Below are positions 2,435 through 8,834 of a stretch of 32,426 bases of DNA, in pieces; position 1 is the stretch's first letter, and each line of letters begins with the position of its first letter. The position numbers and the translations under genes were made by a program. Source of the DNA: Pseudomonadota bacterium (lineage in GTDB: Bacteria; Desulfobacterota; Desulfobulbia; Desulfobulbales; SURF-16); the NCBI GenBank assembly GCA_018897105.1, contig JAHILF010000126.1, positions 1-32,426 on the forward strand. Direction: 5' to 3'. The notes under the pieces are model-generated. The model was not told where the DNA came from and searched no databases. It was given only the letters and a program-made list of their open reading frames with translations.

Positions 2435-2440
2435 GGAGGT
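2435..2440 (+). promoter_or_regulatory. Ribosome binding site that fixes the start of the IF-2-like gene
   Basis: GGAGGT sits 7 bases before the ATG at 2448. An upstream in-frame ATG at 2433 would place this strong site inside the coding region and leave AAGGAG 15 bases away, which is too far. The start is therefore set at 2448. Confidence 0.7.
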
Positions 2441-2447
2441 TCTGCAA

Positions 2448-3188
2448 ATGGGTCACAAATCGAAAACGCACCACCAGCATAAAACAAGTAAACACTCCCC
2501 TAACCTCCCGGCATCGGCAACGACCTCTGAACAGGAGCACAATCCAACGCTTGCCATTGTTATCAAGAGTGATACTGACGGCTGTGAGCAGGCGGTTTGT
2601 GCAACCATTACCAAAAACACTATCGAGGGTCTGCCCGTGGAAATTATCCACAAAGGTGTGGGCGATATCTGCAAGACAGACGTCATGGCCGCAGCCACCG
2701 GCAGCAGACTGGTCCTTGGTTTCAATGTCAATGTGCTGCCCAGGGTTGCGGAACTCTGCAGTGAACAGAATGTCGAGGTGCGCCTCTACTCGGTTATTTA
2801 CAAACTGCACGAGGATCTCAGGGAGATCGCCGTCACACTCCTGCCCCGGGAAGCAGAGGAAAAGATTCTGGGCAAGGCCAAGGTCATTGCCCTGTTTAAA
2901 AGCAGCAGAAAGGGCATCATCATCGGCTGTGAGGTTGAGACAGGCAGACTGCAGCGCGGGGACCGCTTCCGCATCATCTCGGCAATGGGACCTGTCTACT
3001 CGGGCACCGTCTCCTCACTGCATATTGAAAAAGACAGCGTCAGCAAGGCCACGCCCGGGCAGCAGGTGGGCATGAAAATAGAAAATTTCAAGAATGCCCG
3101 CATCGGCGATCTGGTGGAGTGCTATCAGACCATTGCCAGCGGTAAGAACAGAAAATGGCAGCCGAGCGGAAAAATTCTTCATCTTTAA
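2448..3188 (+). CDS. Stand-alone IF-2 C-terminal domains (C1-C2), no GTPase domain
   Basis: The protein has 246 residues. Residues 1-33 form a basic, His/Lys/Ser-rich tail. Residues 34-133 match IF-2 domain III (C1): HKGVGDICKTDVMAAATGSR, GFNVNVLPRVAEL and VEVRLYSVIYKLHEDL line up with the conserved HSGVG..SDV, GFNVRPD..A.ELA and VDIRLYSVIY stretches of true IF-2. Residues 138-228 match domain IV (C2): ILGKAKVIALFKSSRKGIIIGC and KIENFKNARIGDLVE. The N-terminal domain, G domain and domain II of IF-2 are absent, so it cannot bind GTP as IF-2 does. From memory of the Bacillus IF-2 pocket, the fMet-reading segments (SLKRFKDDV and YECG) appear here as SLHIEKDSV and QQVG, so the key Arg, Glu and Cys are replaced. 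It is therefore probably not a working initiator-tRNA carrier. A membrane-protein gene follows 18 bases downstream. Confidence 0.82.
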   Translation: MGHKSKTHHQHKTSKHSPNLPASATTSEQEHNPTLAIVIKSDTDGCEQAVCATITKNTIEGLPVEIIHKGVGDICKTDVMAAATGSRLVLGFNVNVLPRVAELCSEQNVEVRLYSVIYKLHEDLREIAVTLLPREAEEKILGKAKVIALFKSSRKGIIIGCEVETGRLQRGDRFRIISAMGPVYSGTVSSLHIEKDSVSKATPGQQVGMKIENFKNARIGDLVECYQTIASGKNRKWQPSGKILHL

Positions 3189-3206: not shown

Positions 3207-3869
3207 ATGGGAAATGACCAACCAAACAGCACCGCCAAAGAAGATGTTTTAAAGCAGTATGAAAGGCTTCTGCTGCACGAAAACCAGTTCAACACCCACA
3301 TTGCGGAGATCAGGAAAATTGCCTCCGCCTGGCTGCTCGCTGACATGGGCGCCATGGCCTATATCCTCAAAGGCGCGCAAAACGGCATACTGAACCCTCT
3401 CGATCAGAGCATGATCCTTTTGGTCGGCCTGCTCGGCGCCATCGGCCTTGGGGTCCTGTGGATCATGGACCGGCTGGTGTATGCCCAACTTCTGGACGCC
3501 ACCATCTTTCTGGCGCTCAAAATGGAACAGGACCATGCCAATGAGCTTCCCCAGATCAGATCGACCATTCTGGCCTATTCCAGCTATGTGGGCAGCTACA
3601 TCAGCGCCTATTATTATGTGCCCGTTACCGCTCTCGTTTTCACCGCCTGCCTTTTCAAATTCAATGCCCTGATTGCAATCGTTGCCGCGGCAGGCATCTG
3701 CACAGTGATGGCCTTAGCCAGCCGTCCGAAAAAATTTTCAGACATGGCCGCACTCGGCGATGACATGGAGTTCGCCGCTTATCTGCGAATACTGGAAAGT
3801 GCGGAAAACAAGATTAAAATGAACCGCCTGCTCACAAAGATATCATGCGGAATCAAGTCAAAAAATTGA
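3207..3869 (+). CDS. Membrane protein of unknown family, about four helices
   Basis: The protein has 220 residues. A soluble N-terminal segment (1-37) is followed by predicted helices at about 39-55, 68-87, 136-151 and 153-171. An amphipathic charged stretch (about 89-118) lies between helices 2 and 3, and a charged C-terminal tail (about 173-220) contains MEFAAYLRILESAENKIKMNR. I do not recognise the family. The two helix pairs separated by a cytoplasmic-looking segment recall small integral membrane effectors or scaffolds, but no motif proves this. It starts 18 bases after the IF-2-like gene on the same strand, so the two are probably co-transcribed. No hairpin terminator is visible after it, only a T-rich run. 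Confidence 0.75.
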   Translation: MGNDQPNSTAKEDVLKQYERLLLHENQFNTHIAEIRKIASAWLLADMGAMAYILKGAQNGILNPLDQSMILLVGLLGAIGLGVLWIMDRLVYAQLLDATIFLALKMEQDHANELPQIRSTILAYSSYVGSYISAYYYVPVTALVFTACLFKFNALIAIVAAAGICTVMALASRPKKFSDMAALGDDMEFAAYLRILESAENKIKMNRLLTKISCGIKSKN

Positions 3870-4024: not shown

Positions 4025-4957
4025 ATGATTGAAGTAAAAAATTTATGTAAAAGCTATGATGATGTTCCGGCCTTGGACAAGGTCACCTTTTCCGTGCAGG
4101 ATGGAGAGGTCATAGGGCTGCTCGGCCCCAACGGGGCCGGTAAGACCACCCTGATGAAAATACTTACGGGCTTTCTCCAGCCGGATGCGGGAAGCGCCCG
4201 CATTGCAGGACTCGATGTCCTGGACCAGAGCGCAGCCATCCAGCAGATGATCGGCTATCTTCCGGAAAACGCCCCCCTCTACCCGGAACTCACCGTGCAA
4301 TCCTATCTGCGCATGATTGCCGATCTGCGCAATGTCCCCGGAGAAATACAGCAGCAGAGAATTTCCGCGGCCGTTATCAGCACAGGCCTTGCCGGTCGGC
4401 TCACCCTGCCCATCGGCACATTGAGCAAAGGGCTCCGGCAAAGGGTTGGGCTGGCCCAGGCCATTCTCCATCGCCCCAGTCTGCTTATCCTGGACGAGCC
4501 GACCAATGGACTTGATCCCACCCAGATTGCCGAGGTGCGTCATCTGATCAAAAAACTCGCCGGACAGAGTACGGTTATCATCTCCACTCATATTTTGTCC
4601 GAGGTGGAGGCGACCTGTGACCGGGCCATTATCATCATAAAAGGCCGGATCAAGGCCGATGCCAGGCTGTCGGAGCTTGCCGCAACCAGCAATGCCCGCC
4701 TTATTCTGGAGACCACTGATCCGGAAGGTCCCAGACAAATTCTCGCCGACCTGCCGGCAGTAAAACAGGTCAGTTATGACAAAATAAAAAAAGGACGCAT
4801 CTCCTATCTGATCATGACTGACAGCGACCAGGATCTCTGCCCGGCCATATTTACCCTGGCCAAAGAGCATGACTGGCAGCTGTGCGAATTACGCCAGGAG
4901 GCCAGGACCCTTGAAGCGGTATTTAATGAACTGGCCGCGGCGGGAGGTGAAAAATGA
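4025..4957 (+). CDS. ABC transporter ATP-binding protein (GldA/NosF-like)
   Basis: The protein has 310 residues. It is the energy-coupling subunit of an ABC-2 type transporter. Visible motifs are Walker A GPNGAGKTT (about 34-42), the signature LSKGLRQRV, Walker B LLILDEPTNGLD directly after it, and the H-loop histidine in STHILSEVE. The C-terminal about 80 residues are the usual DUF4162-like extension of this subfamily. Its last codons overlap the ATG of the next gene by 4 bases (ATGA, 4954-4957), so the two are translationally coupled. The downstream permease-GldG and DUF4340 genes indicate a Gld-type system rather than a drug or copper exporter. The start is the first ATG of the frame; the 155 bases upstream hold no clear promoter. 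Confidence 0.93.
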   Translation: MIEVKNLCKSYDDVPALDKVTFSVQDGEVIGLLGPNGAGKTTLMKILTGFLQPDAGSARIAGLDVLDQSAAIQQMIGYLPENAPLYPELTVQSYLRMIADLRNVPGEIQQQRISAAVISTGLAGRLTLPIGTLSKGLRQRVGLAQAILHRPSLLILDEPTNGLDPTQIAEVRHLIKKLAGQSTVIISTHILSEVEATCDRAIIIIKGRIKADARLSELAATSNARLILETTDPEGPRQILADLPAVKQVSYDKIKKGRISYLIMTDSDQDLCPAIFTLAKEHDWQLCELRQEARTLEAVFNELAAAGGEK

Positions 4958-7881
4958 AACAGATTCTTGCCATCTGCGGCAAAGAGATGAAAACCTATTT
5001 CGGCACGCCCATGGCTGCCATTTTCATCGGCTTTTTTCTGCTCTGTTCCCTTTTTTCCTTTTTCTGGCTGGAAACCTTCTTTGCCAGAAATACGGCGGAT
5101 ATCCGTCCCCTGTTTAACTGGATGCCCATGCTGATGATTTTTCTGGCGGCAGCCCTTACCATGCGCCAGTGGAGCGAGGAGCAGAAGATCGGTACCCTGG
5201 AGGTGCTTCTCACCCTGCCGGTGCGCCTGCACCAGCTGGTGCTGGGCAAATTCCTGGCCGTGCTGGCCCTCACTTCCTGCGCCTTGCTGCTCACCATCGG
5301 CCTGCCGATTTCCGTGGCCATGATGGGCAATATGGACTGGGGTCCGGTCATCGGCGGCTATCTCGGCGGCCTGCTCATGGCGGCAGCCTATATCAGTATC
5401 GGCCTTTTTGTCTCGTGCCGCACCGATAACCAGATTATCTCGCTCATGCTCACCGTCCTGCTGGCCGGCCTGTTTTTTCTTATCGGCTCAAGCGGTATTA
5501 CCGATTTCTTCGGCAATCAGGCTGCCGACTTTCTCCGCAACCTGGGCACGGGCAGCCGTTTTAGCAGCATCGAACGCGGCGTCATCGACCTGCGCGATGT
5601 GTTTTACTACCTGAGCCTTGCCGTGTTCTTCCTGACCTTGAACATCTACTTTCTTGACCGCACGCGCTGGAGTTTCGGCGAAAATACCGCAGGCTACCGG
5701 AGAAAGGCCGCAATCACCGTGCTGCTGATTGCAGTCAATCTCCTTGCCGCCAACATCTGGCTGTCCAGGGTGAGCTCAGCCCGGCTTGACCTCACCGCCC
5801 AGCGGGAATACTCCCTGTCCCGGGCCACCCGGGAGATCATCATTAATCTGCCCGAACCGCTGGTCATGCGCGGCTATTTCAGCGCCAAGACTCATCCCCT
5901 GCTCTCCCCGCTCGTGCCGCGCATCAAAGACCTGATGACCGAATACGGCATTGCCTCCCGTGGCAACATTCAAGTCTCCTTTGTCGATCCCAAGCTTGAC
6001 GAACAGATCGAAACCGAGGCCAACCAGCAGTATGGCATCAAACCGATTCCCTTTCAGGTGGCCGGCCGTTATGAGGCATCCGTGGTCAACTCCTATTTTC
6101 ATATACTGATCAAATACGGCGATCAATTTGTCACCCTGGGTTTTGATGATCTCATCGAGGTCAAACCGCGACCGGACGGCCAGCTCGACGTCTCTTTGCG
6201 GAATCTGGAATACGACCTCACCCGATCCATTAAAAAGGTGGTCTACGGCTTTCAGTCGCTGGCAACGGTTTTTGACGGCAATCCGGCCGGCTATAAATTA
6301 ATAAGCATCATTACCCCCCGTACCCTGCCGGAACCATTCCAGGCCATGCCCGATACCATCAAAAAGGTGGCCGGCGATCTTGAGCAGGAATCGGGCGGCA
6401 AGCTGCTCTTTGAAGAAAAAGACCCGGATGGGCTATCAGCCGCCGAACAGCAGAAGATGAACGACCAATACGGCATTGAACCGATCAGGATCTCTCTGTT
6501 TGCCGACGACACCTTCTATCTGCTTCTGCTGCTGCAGACAGGGGACAACATTGAACGGCTCTACCTCACCCCGGACATGGGGGAGGCGGAGCTGCGCCAG
6601 GAGATCGAGGGCGCCATCAAGCGCAACGGTTCCGGCTTCACCAAAACCATTGGCGTCTGGGCACCGACAGCGGGTCAACAATCCCCCCTGGCCATGATGG
6701 GGCACGGTGAACCCAAGGACAATTATCAGATCATGGAGCAGTTGCTGCGGGAAAACTATAATCTGCAGAAAGTCGATCTGGGCCCGGGCAGGATTCCCGG
6801 CGATATCGATGTTCTCCTGCTGCTGGCTCCCCATGACTTAACGGATGTGGAACGATTGGCAGTTGACCAGTACCTGATGCAGGGAGGGGCAGTCACAGTG
6901 CTTGCCGGCAACTATCTGCTCGATATGTCCCCGGAAGCCCAATCCCTGCAGGTCAGCAAGGTCAAGGATGGGCTGGCCGGACTGCTCAGTCATTACGGTA
7001 TCACTGTGGGAGAATCTCTGGTCATGGATAAACAGAACGAGCCGTTTCCCATACCGGTAAGCCGCAATATCGGCGGCATGACCATCCAGGAAATCCAGCG
7101 CATCGACTATCCCTTCTTCGTTGATGTGCGGCCGGAAAACATGGCCTCTGACAACCCCATCACTGCAAGTCTTCCTGCCGTGACCATGAACTGGGTGTCA
7201 CCGCTCTCTCTCGATGACCAGAAGTTACAGGGCAAGAAAGTCGCCATCCTGCTCAAGTCAAGCAATGAGTCCTGGCTTGCTCCATCGCCAATAATCGAAC
7301 CTGACTTCGACCATTTCCCTGGTAACGGCTTTGCCCCGGGCCAGAATTTGGAGCAGTACAATCTTGCCGTGGCCATAACCGGCGATTTTGCCAGCTTCTT
7401 TCAAAACAGCCCCGATCCCAGGCTGCAACAAAACGCCAATAAAGAAAAAAGCGGACATGATGAAAGCATGGAAGAAGAGCACACGGAACCTGAGCACACG
7501 CAGAAAAACAGGGACCTGCCGCCCATGCCGATCATCAACCATTCCCCCCCGTCAGCACGCCTGGTGGTCATCGGTTCGGCTGAATTTGTCAGTGACACGG
7601 TCATCAGCATGTCCCAGGGGCTGGGTGCGGACCGCTTCTTAAACAGTCTGGGCTTTATCCAGAATGTCATCGACTGGAGTGTGGCGGATGAAGATCTGCT
7701 GACCATCCGCTCTCGCGGTTCCCACGCCAGACTGCTCAAACCCATGACCAGACAGGAACAAACCTTCTGGGAATGGCTCAATTACGGAGTTGCCCTGGCA
7801 GCCTTGGCTGCAGTGAGCATCTTCGGGGCAAACCGCCGCAGAAAGGAAAAACCCATGCAGCTTGTGGAAGAAACGCCATGA
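4954..7881 (+). CDS. ABC-2 permease fused to GldG-type auxiliary domain
   Basis: The protein has 975 residues. Residues 1-245 are an ABC-2 permease with about six hydrophobic segments (FIGFFLLCSLFSFFWLETFF, GGLLMAAAYISIGLFVSC, LLAGLFFLIGSSGI). A further helix near 255-275 leads into a GldG / ABC_transp_aux region: RLDLTAQREYSLSRATREI is the usual entry motif, and a large periplasmic part follows. A last helix (about 935-955, YGVALAALAAVSIFGA) ends in NRRRKEKP. In the gliding-type systems I know, the permease (GldF) and GldG are separate proteins; here they are one chain. An acidic and His-rich insert (about 828-855) interrupts the GldG part. The gene overlaps its upstream and downstream neighbours by 4 bases each. 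The substrate is unknown. Confidence 0.9.
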   Translation: MKQILAICGKEMKTYFGTPMAAIFIGFFLLCSLFSFFWLETFFARNTADIRPLFNWMPMLMIFLAAALTMRQWSEEQKIGTLEVLLTLPVRLHQLVLGKFLAVLALTSCALLLTIGLPISVAMMGNMDWGPVIGGYLGGLLMAAAYISIGLFVSCRTDNQIISLMLTVLLAGLFFLIGSSGITDFFGNQAADFLRNLGTGSRFSSIERGVIDLRDVFYYLSLAVFFLTLNIYFLDRTRWSFGENTAGYRRKAAITVLLIAVNLLAANIWLSRVSSARLDLTAQREYSLSRATREIIINLPEPLVMRGYFSAKTHPLLSPLVPRIKDLMTEYGIASRGNIQVSFVDPKLDEQIETEANQQYGIKPIPFQVAGRYEASVVNSYFHILIKYGDQFVTLGFDDLIEVKPRPDGQLDVSLRNLEYDLTRSIKKVVYGFQSLATVFDGNPAGYKLISIITPRTLPEPFQAMPDTIKKVAGDLEQESGGKLLFEEKDPDGLSAAEQQKMNDQYGIEPIRISLFADDTFYLLLLLQTGDNIERLYLTPDMGEAELRQEIEGAIKRNGSGFTKTIGVWAPTAGQQSPLAMMGHGEPKDNYQIMEQLLRENYNLQKVDLGPGRIPGDIDVLLLLAPHDLTDVERLAVDQYLMQGGAVTVLAGNYLLDMSPEAQSLQVSKVKDGLAGLLSHYGITVGESLVMDKQNEPFPIPVSRNIGGMTIQEIQRIDYPFFVDVRPENMASDNPITASLPAVTMNWVSPLSLDDQKLQGKKVAILLKSSNESWLAPSPIIEPDFDHFPGNGFAPGQNLEQYNLAVAITGDFASFFQNSPDPRLQQNANKEKSGHDESMEEEHTEPEHTQKNRDLPPMPIINHSPPSARLVVIGSAEFVSDTVISMSQGLGADRFLNSLGFIQNVIDWSVADEDLLTIRSRGSHARLLKPMTRQEQTFWEWLNYGVALAALAAVSIFGANRRRKEKPMQLVEETP

Positions 7882-8834
7882 TCCGAAAAAAAATAAATCT
7901 CATTCTGCTCATCCTGCTGATCTGCCAGGTGCTGCTGATCGCCTTCCTTTATCTGCCAAGTGGCGAAAAGGGGCAACCGGTGGTGGAACTTGTCCCCGGT
8001 CTCACTGCCGGCACGGTTGCCGAGTTGTCCATCACCGATGTAACCGGCAAGACGCTGTCCCTGAAAAAAGAGAACGATGGAAACTGGCTGATTGATGATG
8101 GCAGTCCTGACATGTTCCCGGCCGATGCCGGTCAGATCCAACATATTATCACTAACCTTACCTCTCTCCAGTCACAGCGGCTGGTCACCAGGACCCGGTC
8201 AAGCCATATCCGTCTCCAGGTGGATGACAAGGTTTTCGTTAAAAAGATTGTTCTCAAGGCCAAAGACGGCAAAACCCAGACCCTCTTGCTGGGCAGTTCC
8301 TCCGGGCCGCAGACAATCCATGTCCGTCCGCAATCAACGGATAATGTCTATCTGGCCAGAGGCATTTCCACCTGGAACCTTGATACCCACAAGGAATCAT
8401 GGTGGCAGAAACTGTATGTGCAGGTTGACAGGAACAGACTGCAGGAGTTGACCCTGAAAAACAGCCACGGCAGCTTTACCTTGCGTAAAGACGGGGAAAA
8501 GTGGCAGGTGAGCGGTGACGAATCCCAACAGGAACCGGAGCCGGCCGCCCTTGACAATTTCCTGCAGAAAGTCACCCATATTGTCATCAACAGCTATCTG
8601 GGCAAACAATACCAGGGCAAACCCCTTGATACTGCCGTTCTCACCCTGACCACGGACAAGGAAACCGTGACCGTCAACATCGGCCCCAAAGAAAGCGGAG
8701 AAGACGATGACCATATCTTCAAGTCGTCGGCCTCACCCTTTTTTGCCACGGCAGGCAGCTTTCAGATCGATCCTCTGACCGGTATGAAAAAAGAGGATTT
8801 CTATAACAAAGGGGAAGAAAAAGAACAGCAATAG
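7878..8834 (+). CDS. DUF4340 membrane-anchored periplasmic protein
   Basis: The protein has 318 residues. The start is the ATG at 7878 that overlaps the previous stop (ATGA), which gives a proper N-terminal anchor MIRKKINLILLILLICQVLL. A start further upstream in the same frame would place this helix internally. The rest is repeated beta-rich halves typical of DUF4340, with the hallmark SWWQKLYVQVDRNRLQELT in the middle. DUF4340 genes commonly follow GldG-type ABC genes, so it is probably a periplasmic partner of the transporter. Its biochemical role is not established. It converges with the lipoprotein gene 37 bases downstream. Confidence 0.88.
   Translation: MIRKKINLILLILLICQVLLIAFLYLPSGEKGQPVVELVPGLTAGTVAELSITDVTGKTLSLKKENDGNWLIDDGSPDMFPADAGQIQHIITNLTSLQSQRLVTRTRSSHIRLQVDDKVFVKKIVLKAKDGKTQTLLLGSSSGPQTIHVRPQSTDNVYLARGISTWNLDTHKESWWQKLYVQVDRNRLQELTLKNSHGSFTLRKDGEKWQVSGDESQQEPEPAALDNFLQKVTHIVINSYLGKQYQGKPLDTAVLTLTTDKETVTVNIGPKESGEDDDHIFKSSASPFFATAGSFQIDPLTGMKKEDFYNKGEEKEQQ

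Follow-up and report, generated by a model that had tools for sequence, protein, structure and literature searches.

To our knowledge, initiation factor IF2 is universal. Recognition of the formyl-methionyl end of tRNA is the classic role of its C2 domain. The window analyzed here, a stretch of 32,426 nucleotides from a Pseudomonadota bacterium (contig JAHILF010000126.1), contains a gene that appears to encode the last two domains of IF2 and no GTPase. This raises the question of whether the gene is a broken copy of the IF2 gene, infB, or encodes a protein in its own right and, if the latter, what this protein may bind.

Domain composition of the 246-residue protein

The original prediction was a free-standing pair of IF2 domains, C1 and C2, without a GTPase and with a short His/Lys-rich tail replacing the missing N-terminal parts. 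Domain searches agreed with it. The Pfam family IF-2 (PF11987) matched residues 20 to 124 with an E value of 2e-24 and a score of 86.2 bits against a cut-off of 27, which identifies C1. TIGR00487 matched residues 22 to 230 (E value of 1.3e-44) onto model positions 373 to 581 of 587 only; therefore, the G domain, domain II, and the N-terminal part are absent. The score for this model, 153 bits, did not reach the curated whole-protein cut-off of 424.4 bits. No GTPase family was found in the protein with Pfam at an E value of ≤1. When the C2 domain was searched alone, it matched PF03144 (30.6 bits) and PF14578 (24.7 bits). The first 16 residues include 5 His and 4 Lys. Basic, His-rich N termini recur in many, not all, relatives, and the MGHK start is conserved in three close relatives, L003, L004, and L006. 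At the other end, a conserved Trp was found in 45 and a conserved Pro in 43 of 51 family rows (5 rows have no such tail) and in none of the 29 aligned infB rows. From its N to its C terminus, the protein thus has a His/Lys-rich tail predicted to be disordered, the C1 and C2 domains of IF2, and a W-x-P tail that is new (Table 1). The W-x-P end (positions 3156 to 3164) resembles the C-terminal end of human mtIF2, and the alignment with human mtIF2 runs through it.

An AlphaFold2 model built with 15 alignment rows had a pLDDT of 82 and a pTM of 0.51, with two confident domains whose mutual placement is uncertain. Predicted C1 fitted IF2 (9h9h_Y) with a Z score of 15.9 and an rmsd of 1.7 over 104 residues. 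Predicted C2 fitted both eEF1A domain 2 (1ije_A; Z score of 13.1, rmsd of 2.3 over 87 residues) and the C2 domain of mtIF2 (2crv; Z score of 14.5, rmsd of 6.7 over 105 residues).

Table 1. Positions of the gene, its domains, and the pocket residues in the window
Feature	Position	Strand	Basis or remark
Stand-alone IF2 C1-C2 protein gene	2448..3188	+	246 aa plus stop; intact frame
Shine-Dalgarno GGAGG	2435..2439	+	8 bases ahead of ATG at 2448; sequence reading
N-terminal His/Lys-rich tail, residues 1-31	2448..2540	+	Predicted disordered, pLDDT <50
C1 domain (IF2 domain III), residues ~33-131	2544..2840	+	PF11987; predicted model fits IF2 9h9h_Y
C2 domain (IF2 domain IV, EF-Tu domain 2 type barrel), residues ~137-230	2856..3137	+	PF03144, PF14578; predicted model fit
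Cys161, retained pocket cysteine (E. coli Cys815; B. stearothermophilus Cys668, offset 147)	2928..2930	+	Cys in 49/51 family rows
His192-Ile193-Glu194 in place of infB Lys/Arg846-Arg847-Phe848	3021..3029	+	Alignment, 51 vs 29 rows
Gln205-Gln206-Val207-Gly208 at infB Tyr/Phe859-Glu860-Cys861-Gly862	3060..3071	+	Alignment, 51 vs 29 rows
C-terminal tail with family-specific W-x-P-x-G motif (W237, P239)	3138..3185	+	51 family rows vs 29 infB rows

Rewriting of the fMet pocket

The pocket was compared between 51 family rows and 29 infB rows; infB row L139 was left out because it is a near-copy of the genome's own infB. Residue numbering was fixed on E. coli infB. It agrees with the correspondence of E. 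coli Arg847 to Bacillus stearothermophilus Arg700 (PMC8709274), and by the same offset of 147, B. stearothermophilus Gly715 (PMC4236685) is E. coli Gly862.

The S-L-K/R-R-F stretch of the 29 infB rows aligned with S-L-H-I-E, and Y-E-C-G aligned with Q-Q-V-G. Position 846, Lys or Arg in infB, was His in 43 family rows, Gln in 7, and Arg in 1. Position 847, Arg in 29/29 infB rows, was Ile in 46, Val in 2, and Ala, Leu, or Arg in 1 each, while position 848, Phe in 29/29 infB rows, was Glu in 34, Gly in 13, Asp in 3, and Lys in 1. In the second stretch, Gln was found at position 859 (infB Tyr/Phe) in 45 of the 51 family rows. Glu860 (29/29 infB rows) was replaced by Gln (35 rows), Lys (11 rows), or Arg (2 rows) and kept in 3, and Cys861 (28/29 infB rows) was replaced by Val (37 rows), Ala (13 rows), or Met (1 row). 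Gly862 was kept in all 51 rows. The trio that reads fMet, Arg847, Glu860, and Cys861, is thus Ile, Gln, and Val in the 246-residue protein. C1 was altered as well: Arg749, present in 29/29 infB rows, is gone in the commonest family states, and Leu stands in place of Ala774 in 51/51 family rows.

As judged from this alignment, the fMet pocket has been rewritten family-wide into another conserved set of residues; the barrel and the core of the 3'-end pocket stay. The replacement of the fMet-reading residues had been proposed for this locus, and the possibility that the pocket is intact when properly aligned was tested and excluded by the two sets of rows. In detail, the "QV" substitution had been named correctly, whereas "IEK" was one residue out of register, since K/R-R aligns with H-I. 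Changing Arg847 to Gly in E. coli IF2 strongly reduces the affinity for fMet-tRNA (PMC8709274); hence, it is fair to infer from the aligned residues that the family has lost fMet reading. The family-wide rewriting also points to a repurposed module for binding tRNA ends or the ribosome rather than to an initiation factor, in line with the original prediction. A natural, conserved C1-C2 protein with no GTPase and a rewritten pocket lends itself to experiments on what the individual pocket residues recognize.

C1 and C2 can be aligned over their full lengths with the same domains of bacterial IF2, at ~33% identity to the genome's own infB, with Gly862 kept throughout and Cys815 in 49/51 rows. 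In contrast to IF2, the family has no G domain, domain II, or N-terminal part, has positions 846 to 848 and 859 to 861 replaced, and carries the His/Lys tail in front and the W-x-P tail behind. TIGR00487 gave 126 to 154 bits in four family members versus 307 to 314 bits in three infB C1-C2 segments, and the archaeal model NF003078 gave 59 to 73 bits versus 43 to 52 bits in the same numbers of sequences. PF14578 scored 19 to 26 bits in five family C2 domains and ≤17 bits in four infB domains; PF03144 scored 19 to 31 bits in five family domains and 31 to 40 bits in four infB domains. Taken together, these scores indicate an origin from bacterial IF2, with a pocket region leaning to the IF5B type. 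A reversion of the pocket to the EF-Tu type was unsupported by Pfam, given the PF03144 scores. Domains III and IV of aIF5B/eIF5B have the same fold, and the archaeal models score the family somewhat above infB; however, the family has no GTPase and is overall far closer to bacterial IF2. The cut-offs of the IF5B models were not reached (NF003078, 63 bits versus 468; TIGR00491, 46.3 bits versus 554.75).

Distribution and origin

In a family-profile search, the stand-alone genes scored >220 bits in short frames, and infB scored at most ~175 bits among the matches listed. With this profile, carriers made up 21/257 genomes in the class of the window, 5/6 in its genus, and 13/395 in its phylum; in Nitrospirae, they made up 10/345 of a phylum sample and 20/200 of a class sample, some of the samples overlapping. 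Fifty-one of at least 54 carriers were aligned (G240, G002, and G004 were left out), and by record titles, these 51 homologues belong to Desulfobacterota and Nitrospirota. A peptide-pattern scan of genome contigs gave 17 loci titled Deltaproteobacteria/Proteobacteria (including Desulfurivibrio) or Nitrospirae; for the distribution outside the two phyla, this is the one scan available, and it misses diverged members. The carriers are some sulfur-cycle and groundwater bacteria that have a normal IF2 besides; wherever both genes were listed for a genome, the host had kept its normal infB. No report of a stand-alone or GTPase-less IF2 relative was found in a search limited to the open-access literature.

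A quick tree combined the 51 family proteins with infB rows for comparison, 29 from the same groups and 5 as the outgroup. The family proteins formed one clade with an SH-aLRT of 100 and a stem of 2.74 substitutions/site. A separate origin in each phylum was rejected (p-AU of 7e-42), and a tree with the Nitrospirae members constrained as one clade fitted better than the free quick tree. Therefore, the family had a single origin and broadly tracks its hosts, with many absences. The dN/dS ratio was 0.10 to 0.21 in 9/10 pairs of relatives, and dS was saturated in the tenth pair. The free-standing IF2 C1-C2 proteins are an old family that arose once and evolves under purifying selection.

That the protein consists of the last two domains of infB would suit a fragment or decaying copy of that gene. 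This explanation can practically be dismissed. The host genome has an intact infB of its own on another contig (G000:C60; open frame of 968 aa), so the gene at 2448 to 3188 did not arise by a frameshift or an assembly break, an outcome that had been named at the outset as one that would refute the prediction. The dN/dS values and the deep single clade also speak against a fragment or decaying copy, and the gene is also present in the single-contig genome G1024 and on megabase-size contigs of G622 and G583.

The reading as a mobile or phage gene was rejected. The viral contigs scanned contained no relative, and phage and plasmid records gave only matches of <60% identity (21 and 49 records, respectively). 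The highest identities were 37.1% for phage (best 20 of 21) and 35.3% for plasmid records (best 20 of 49), and these matches were infB where annotated. PADLOC and PHROGs gave no match.

Gene neighborhood and proposed function

No neighbor gene was common to the whole family. In 6/51 loci, from both phyla, a gene for the small heat shock protein Hsp20 lay no more than 3.5 kb away from the family gene, versus an expectation of 0.40 loci given 222 hsp20 matches over 191 Mb of whole-genome sequence. The corresponding Poisson probability, calculated with rounded genome sizes, was 4e-6 if the loci are independent and 8e-4 when only four are counted as independent; some hsp20-bearing loci are related, L096 and L121 being sisters in the tree. 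By gene order, the P value was 0.02 to 0.04. Because the idea arose from the data, the association is a lead only. In L096 and L116, hsp20 was located upstream on the same strand, at 47 and 56 bases, respectively, and a terminator-like hairpin with a T-run lies between the two genes in L116; hsp20 was further off in L121, L098, L109, and L102 and not nearby in the window's own locus. In an unselective tally (8/51 loci dropped as near-copies; genes of 120 to 700 aa only), HSP20, with 5 members, ranked first of the Pfam families in the 121 near genes. It was outside the top 25 families listed for 121 far genes (of 153), one of which was Hsp20. The greedy gene calls lacked the hsp20 gene adjoining the family gene in L116, which the later hsp20 searches have. 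By eye, none of the hsp20 genes listed lay within 3.5 kb of a SelB gene, used as a control, in the carriers listed for both genes, and no HPF gene (PF02482) was seen at ≤3.5 kb from the family gene in any of the 51 genomes. In three carriers, an HPF-type gene was found within 1 kb of hsp20 (G261:C69, G263:C142, and G270:C85).

The ligands and function of the family are what we infer beyond its observed features, namely, the family itself, the missing GTPase, the pocket switch, the selection, and the single origin. The family may act on ribosomes or tRNA as a stress factor. More specifically, a GTP-independent stress or hibernation factor occupying the ribosomal CCA-end/IF2 site is the reading that we favor over the others, although we consider it somewhat short of probable. 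The protein would bind, without GTP, where IF2 C2 and the tRNA CCA end normally sit; this could be the A-site/peptidyl-transferase side of the 50S subunit or, alternatively, the 3' end of a tRNA that is non-initiator, unformylated, or uncharged. The basic His-rich tail could contact rRNA. In stress, the protein would serve in hibernation or protection, like Balon, a catalytically dead release-factor relative, and since the protein itself has no GTPase, its release would occur by competition or dilution, not by hydrolysis. It is possible, if more tentative, that this family of hibernation or protection factors arose once, when IF2 was cut to its GTPase-free C1-C2 half and the fMet pocket was retuned so as to take another 3'-end ligand or rRNA; this would parallel the origin of Balon from a release factor. 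If the family is such a factor, translation factors have given rise to factors of this kind on more than one occasion.

Balon genes are described as lying near Hsp20 and other stress genes, in surroundings that differ by phylum (PMC10901736). By analogy, both are translation-factor relatives without catalytic parts, with a roaming gene context and hsp20 neighbors, the latter in 6/51 loci of the present family. In contrast, Balon is related to aeRF1, with another ancestor and fold, and its ribosome binding is reported as demonstrated, whereas that of the present family is a proposal. Balon is widespread (23/27 phyla; PMC10901736).

A protein that acts on tRNA only, holding or protecting an aminoacyl or free CCA end off the ribosome as a two-domain counterpart of archaeal Pbp11, is unlikely but carries some weight. 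Pbp11 is likewise a free-standing tRNA-binding barrel of the EF-Tu domain 2 type, which C2 keeps together with the pocket glycine and cysteine, and there is weak similarity to its structure (7anu; profile E value of 5.9e-5) and to its model, NF041207 (15 to 24 bits in four family members). However, these scores, with 23.6 bits for the 246-residue protein, are far below the cut-off of 100 bits, and an infB segment reached 19.3 bits as well. Moreover, Pbp11 is one domain of ~92 to 104 residues, whereas the family also has C1, conserved as much as C2, an indication that binding a tRNA end is not all that is required. Domain IV of archaeal/eukaryotic IF5B reads unformylated Met-tRNA, and the higher family scores with NF003078 and PF14578 would fit a protein of the same specificity that assists or replaces the usual initiation factor or competes with IF2. 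We give this explanation little credence, as the protein is overall bacterial-IF2-like by TIGR00487, has no G domain for GTP-controlled subunit joining, and coexists with a normal infB in the genomes listed for both genes.

Fold matches of the predicted model include mtIF2 in small-subunit assembly intermediates (7pua, 7pub, and 9igt), which would suit a ribosome-assembly factor; the patchy distribution and the failure of any ribosome-biogenesis gene to recur among the neighbor families listed make this role improbable. IF2 itself has chaperone activity, and the neighboring hsp20 genes could also indicate a chaperone-like holdase that partners small heat shock proteins and no longer takes part in translation. 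The new but specific conserved pocket pattern goes beyond the needs of a generic holdase, and we regard this role, too, as hardly convincing. Returning to the reading as a stress or hibernation factor, the original prediction had listed a decoy, a stress factor, and a membrane tether among the uses of a repurposed module. The stress factor found indirect support in the hsp20 loci, and a decoy is conceivable; the membrane tether did not survive. A module tethered to the membrane and working with the next gene (3207 to 3866), on the same strand after a 22-base gap, is very improbable, because the neighbor was significantly matched in just 1/50 other loci, by an 88% identical copy in L003/L124 (one genome). 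The product, likely a membrane protein of 220 aa, had no Pfam, NCBIfam, PADLOC, or PHROGs match. Further downstream (4025 to 8834) are genes for an ABC-type ATPase and a large membrane/gliding-like permease, a pair that follows the family gene in L003 to L006 and not elsewhere.

Upstream signals were also examined. A second in-frame ATG at 2433 overlaps the Shine-Dalgarno sequence. Heat-shock promoter control was rejected: CIRCE was found upstream of 0/49 family genes, and sigma-32-like sites were not enriched (3/49 and 1/49 versus 2.5 expected). Sigma-54-like sites were found in 0/49, and Rfam gave no match. A small hairpin might form at 2410 to 2450 through pairing of GGAGCTCC with the Shine-Dalgarno sequence, and two close relatives are similar; compared with shuffles, its z scores in four relatives (-1.9, -0.9, +0.5, and -0.1) were not significant, and a leader hairpin was not supported.

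Other neighbors were seen at single loci. In L083 only, the family gene is preceded on its own strand, at a distance of 102 bases, by a full SelB gene (6084 to 8012; TIGR00475, 378 bits). SelB was present in 76/80 genomes (40/41 carriers and 36/39 noncarriers) and is therefore not discriminating; a link to selenocysteine was rejected, as was one to pyrrolysine (PylS in 0/80 genomes). Just upstream of the family gene, L108 has a gene for a universal stress protein and L120 one for an HtrA-like protease.
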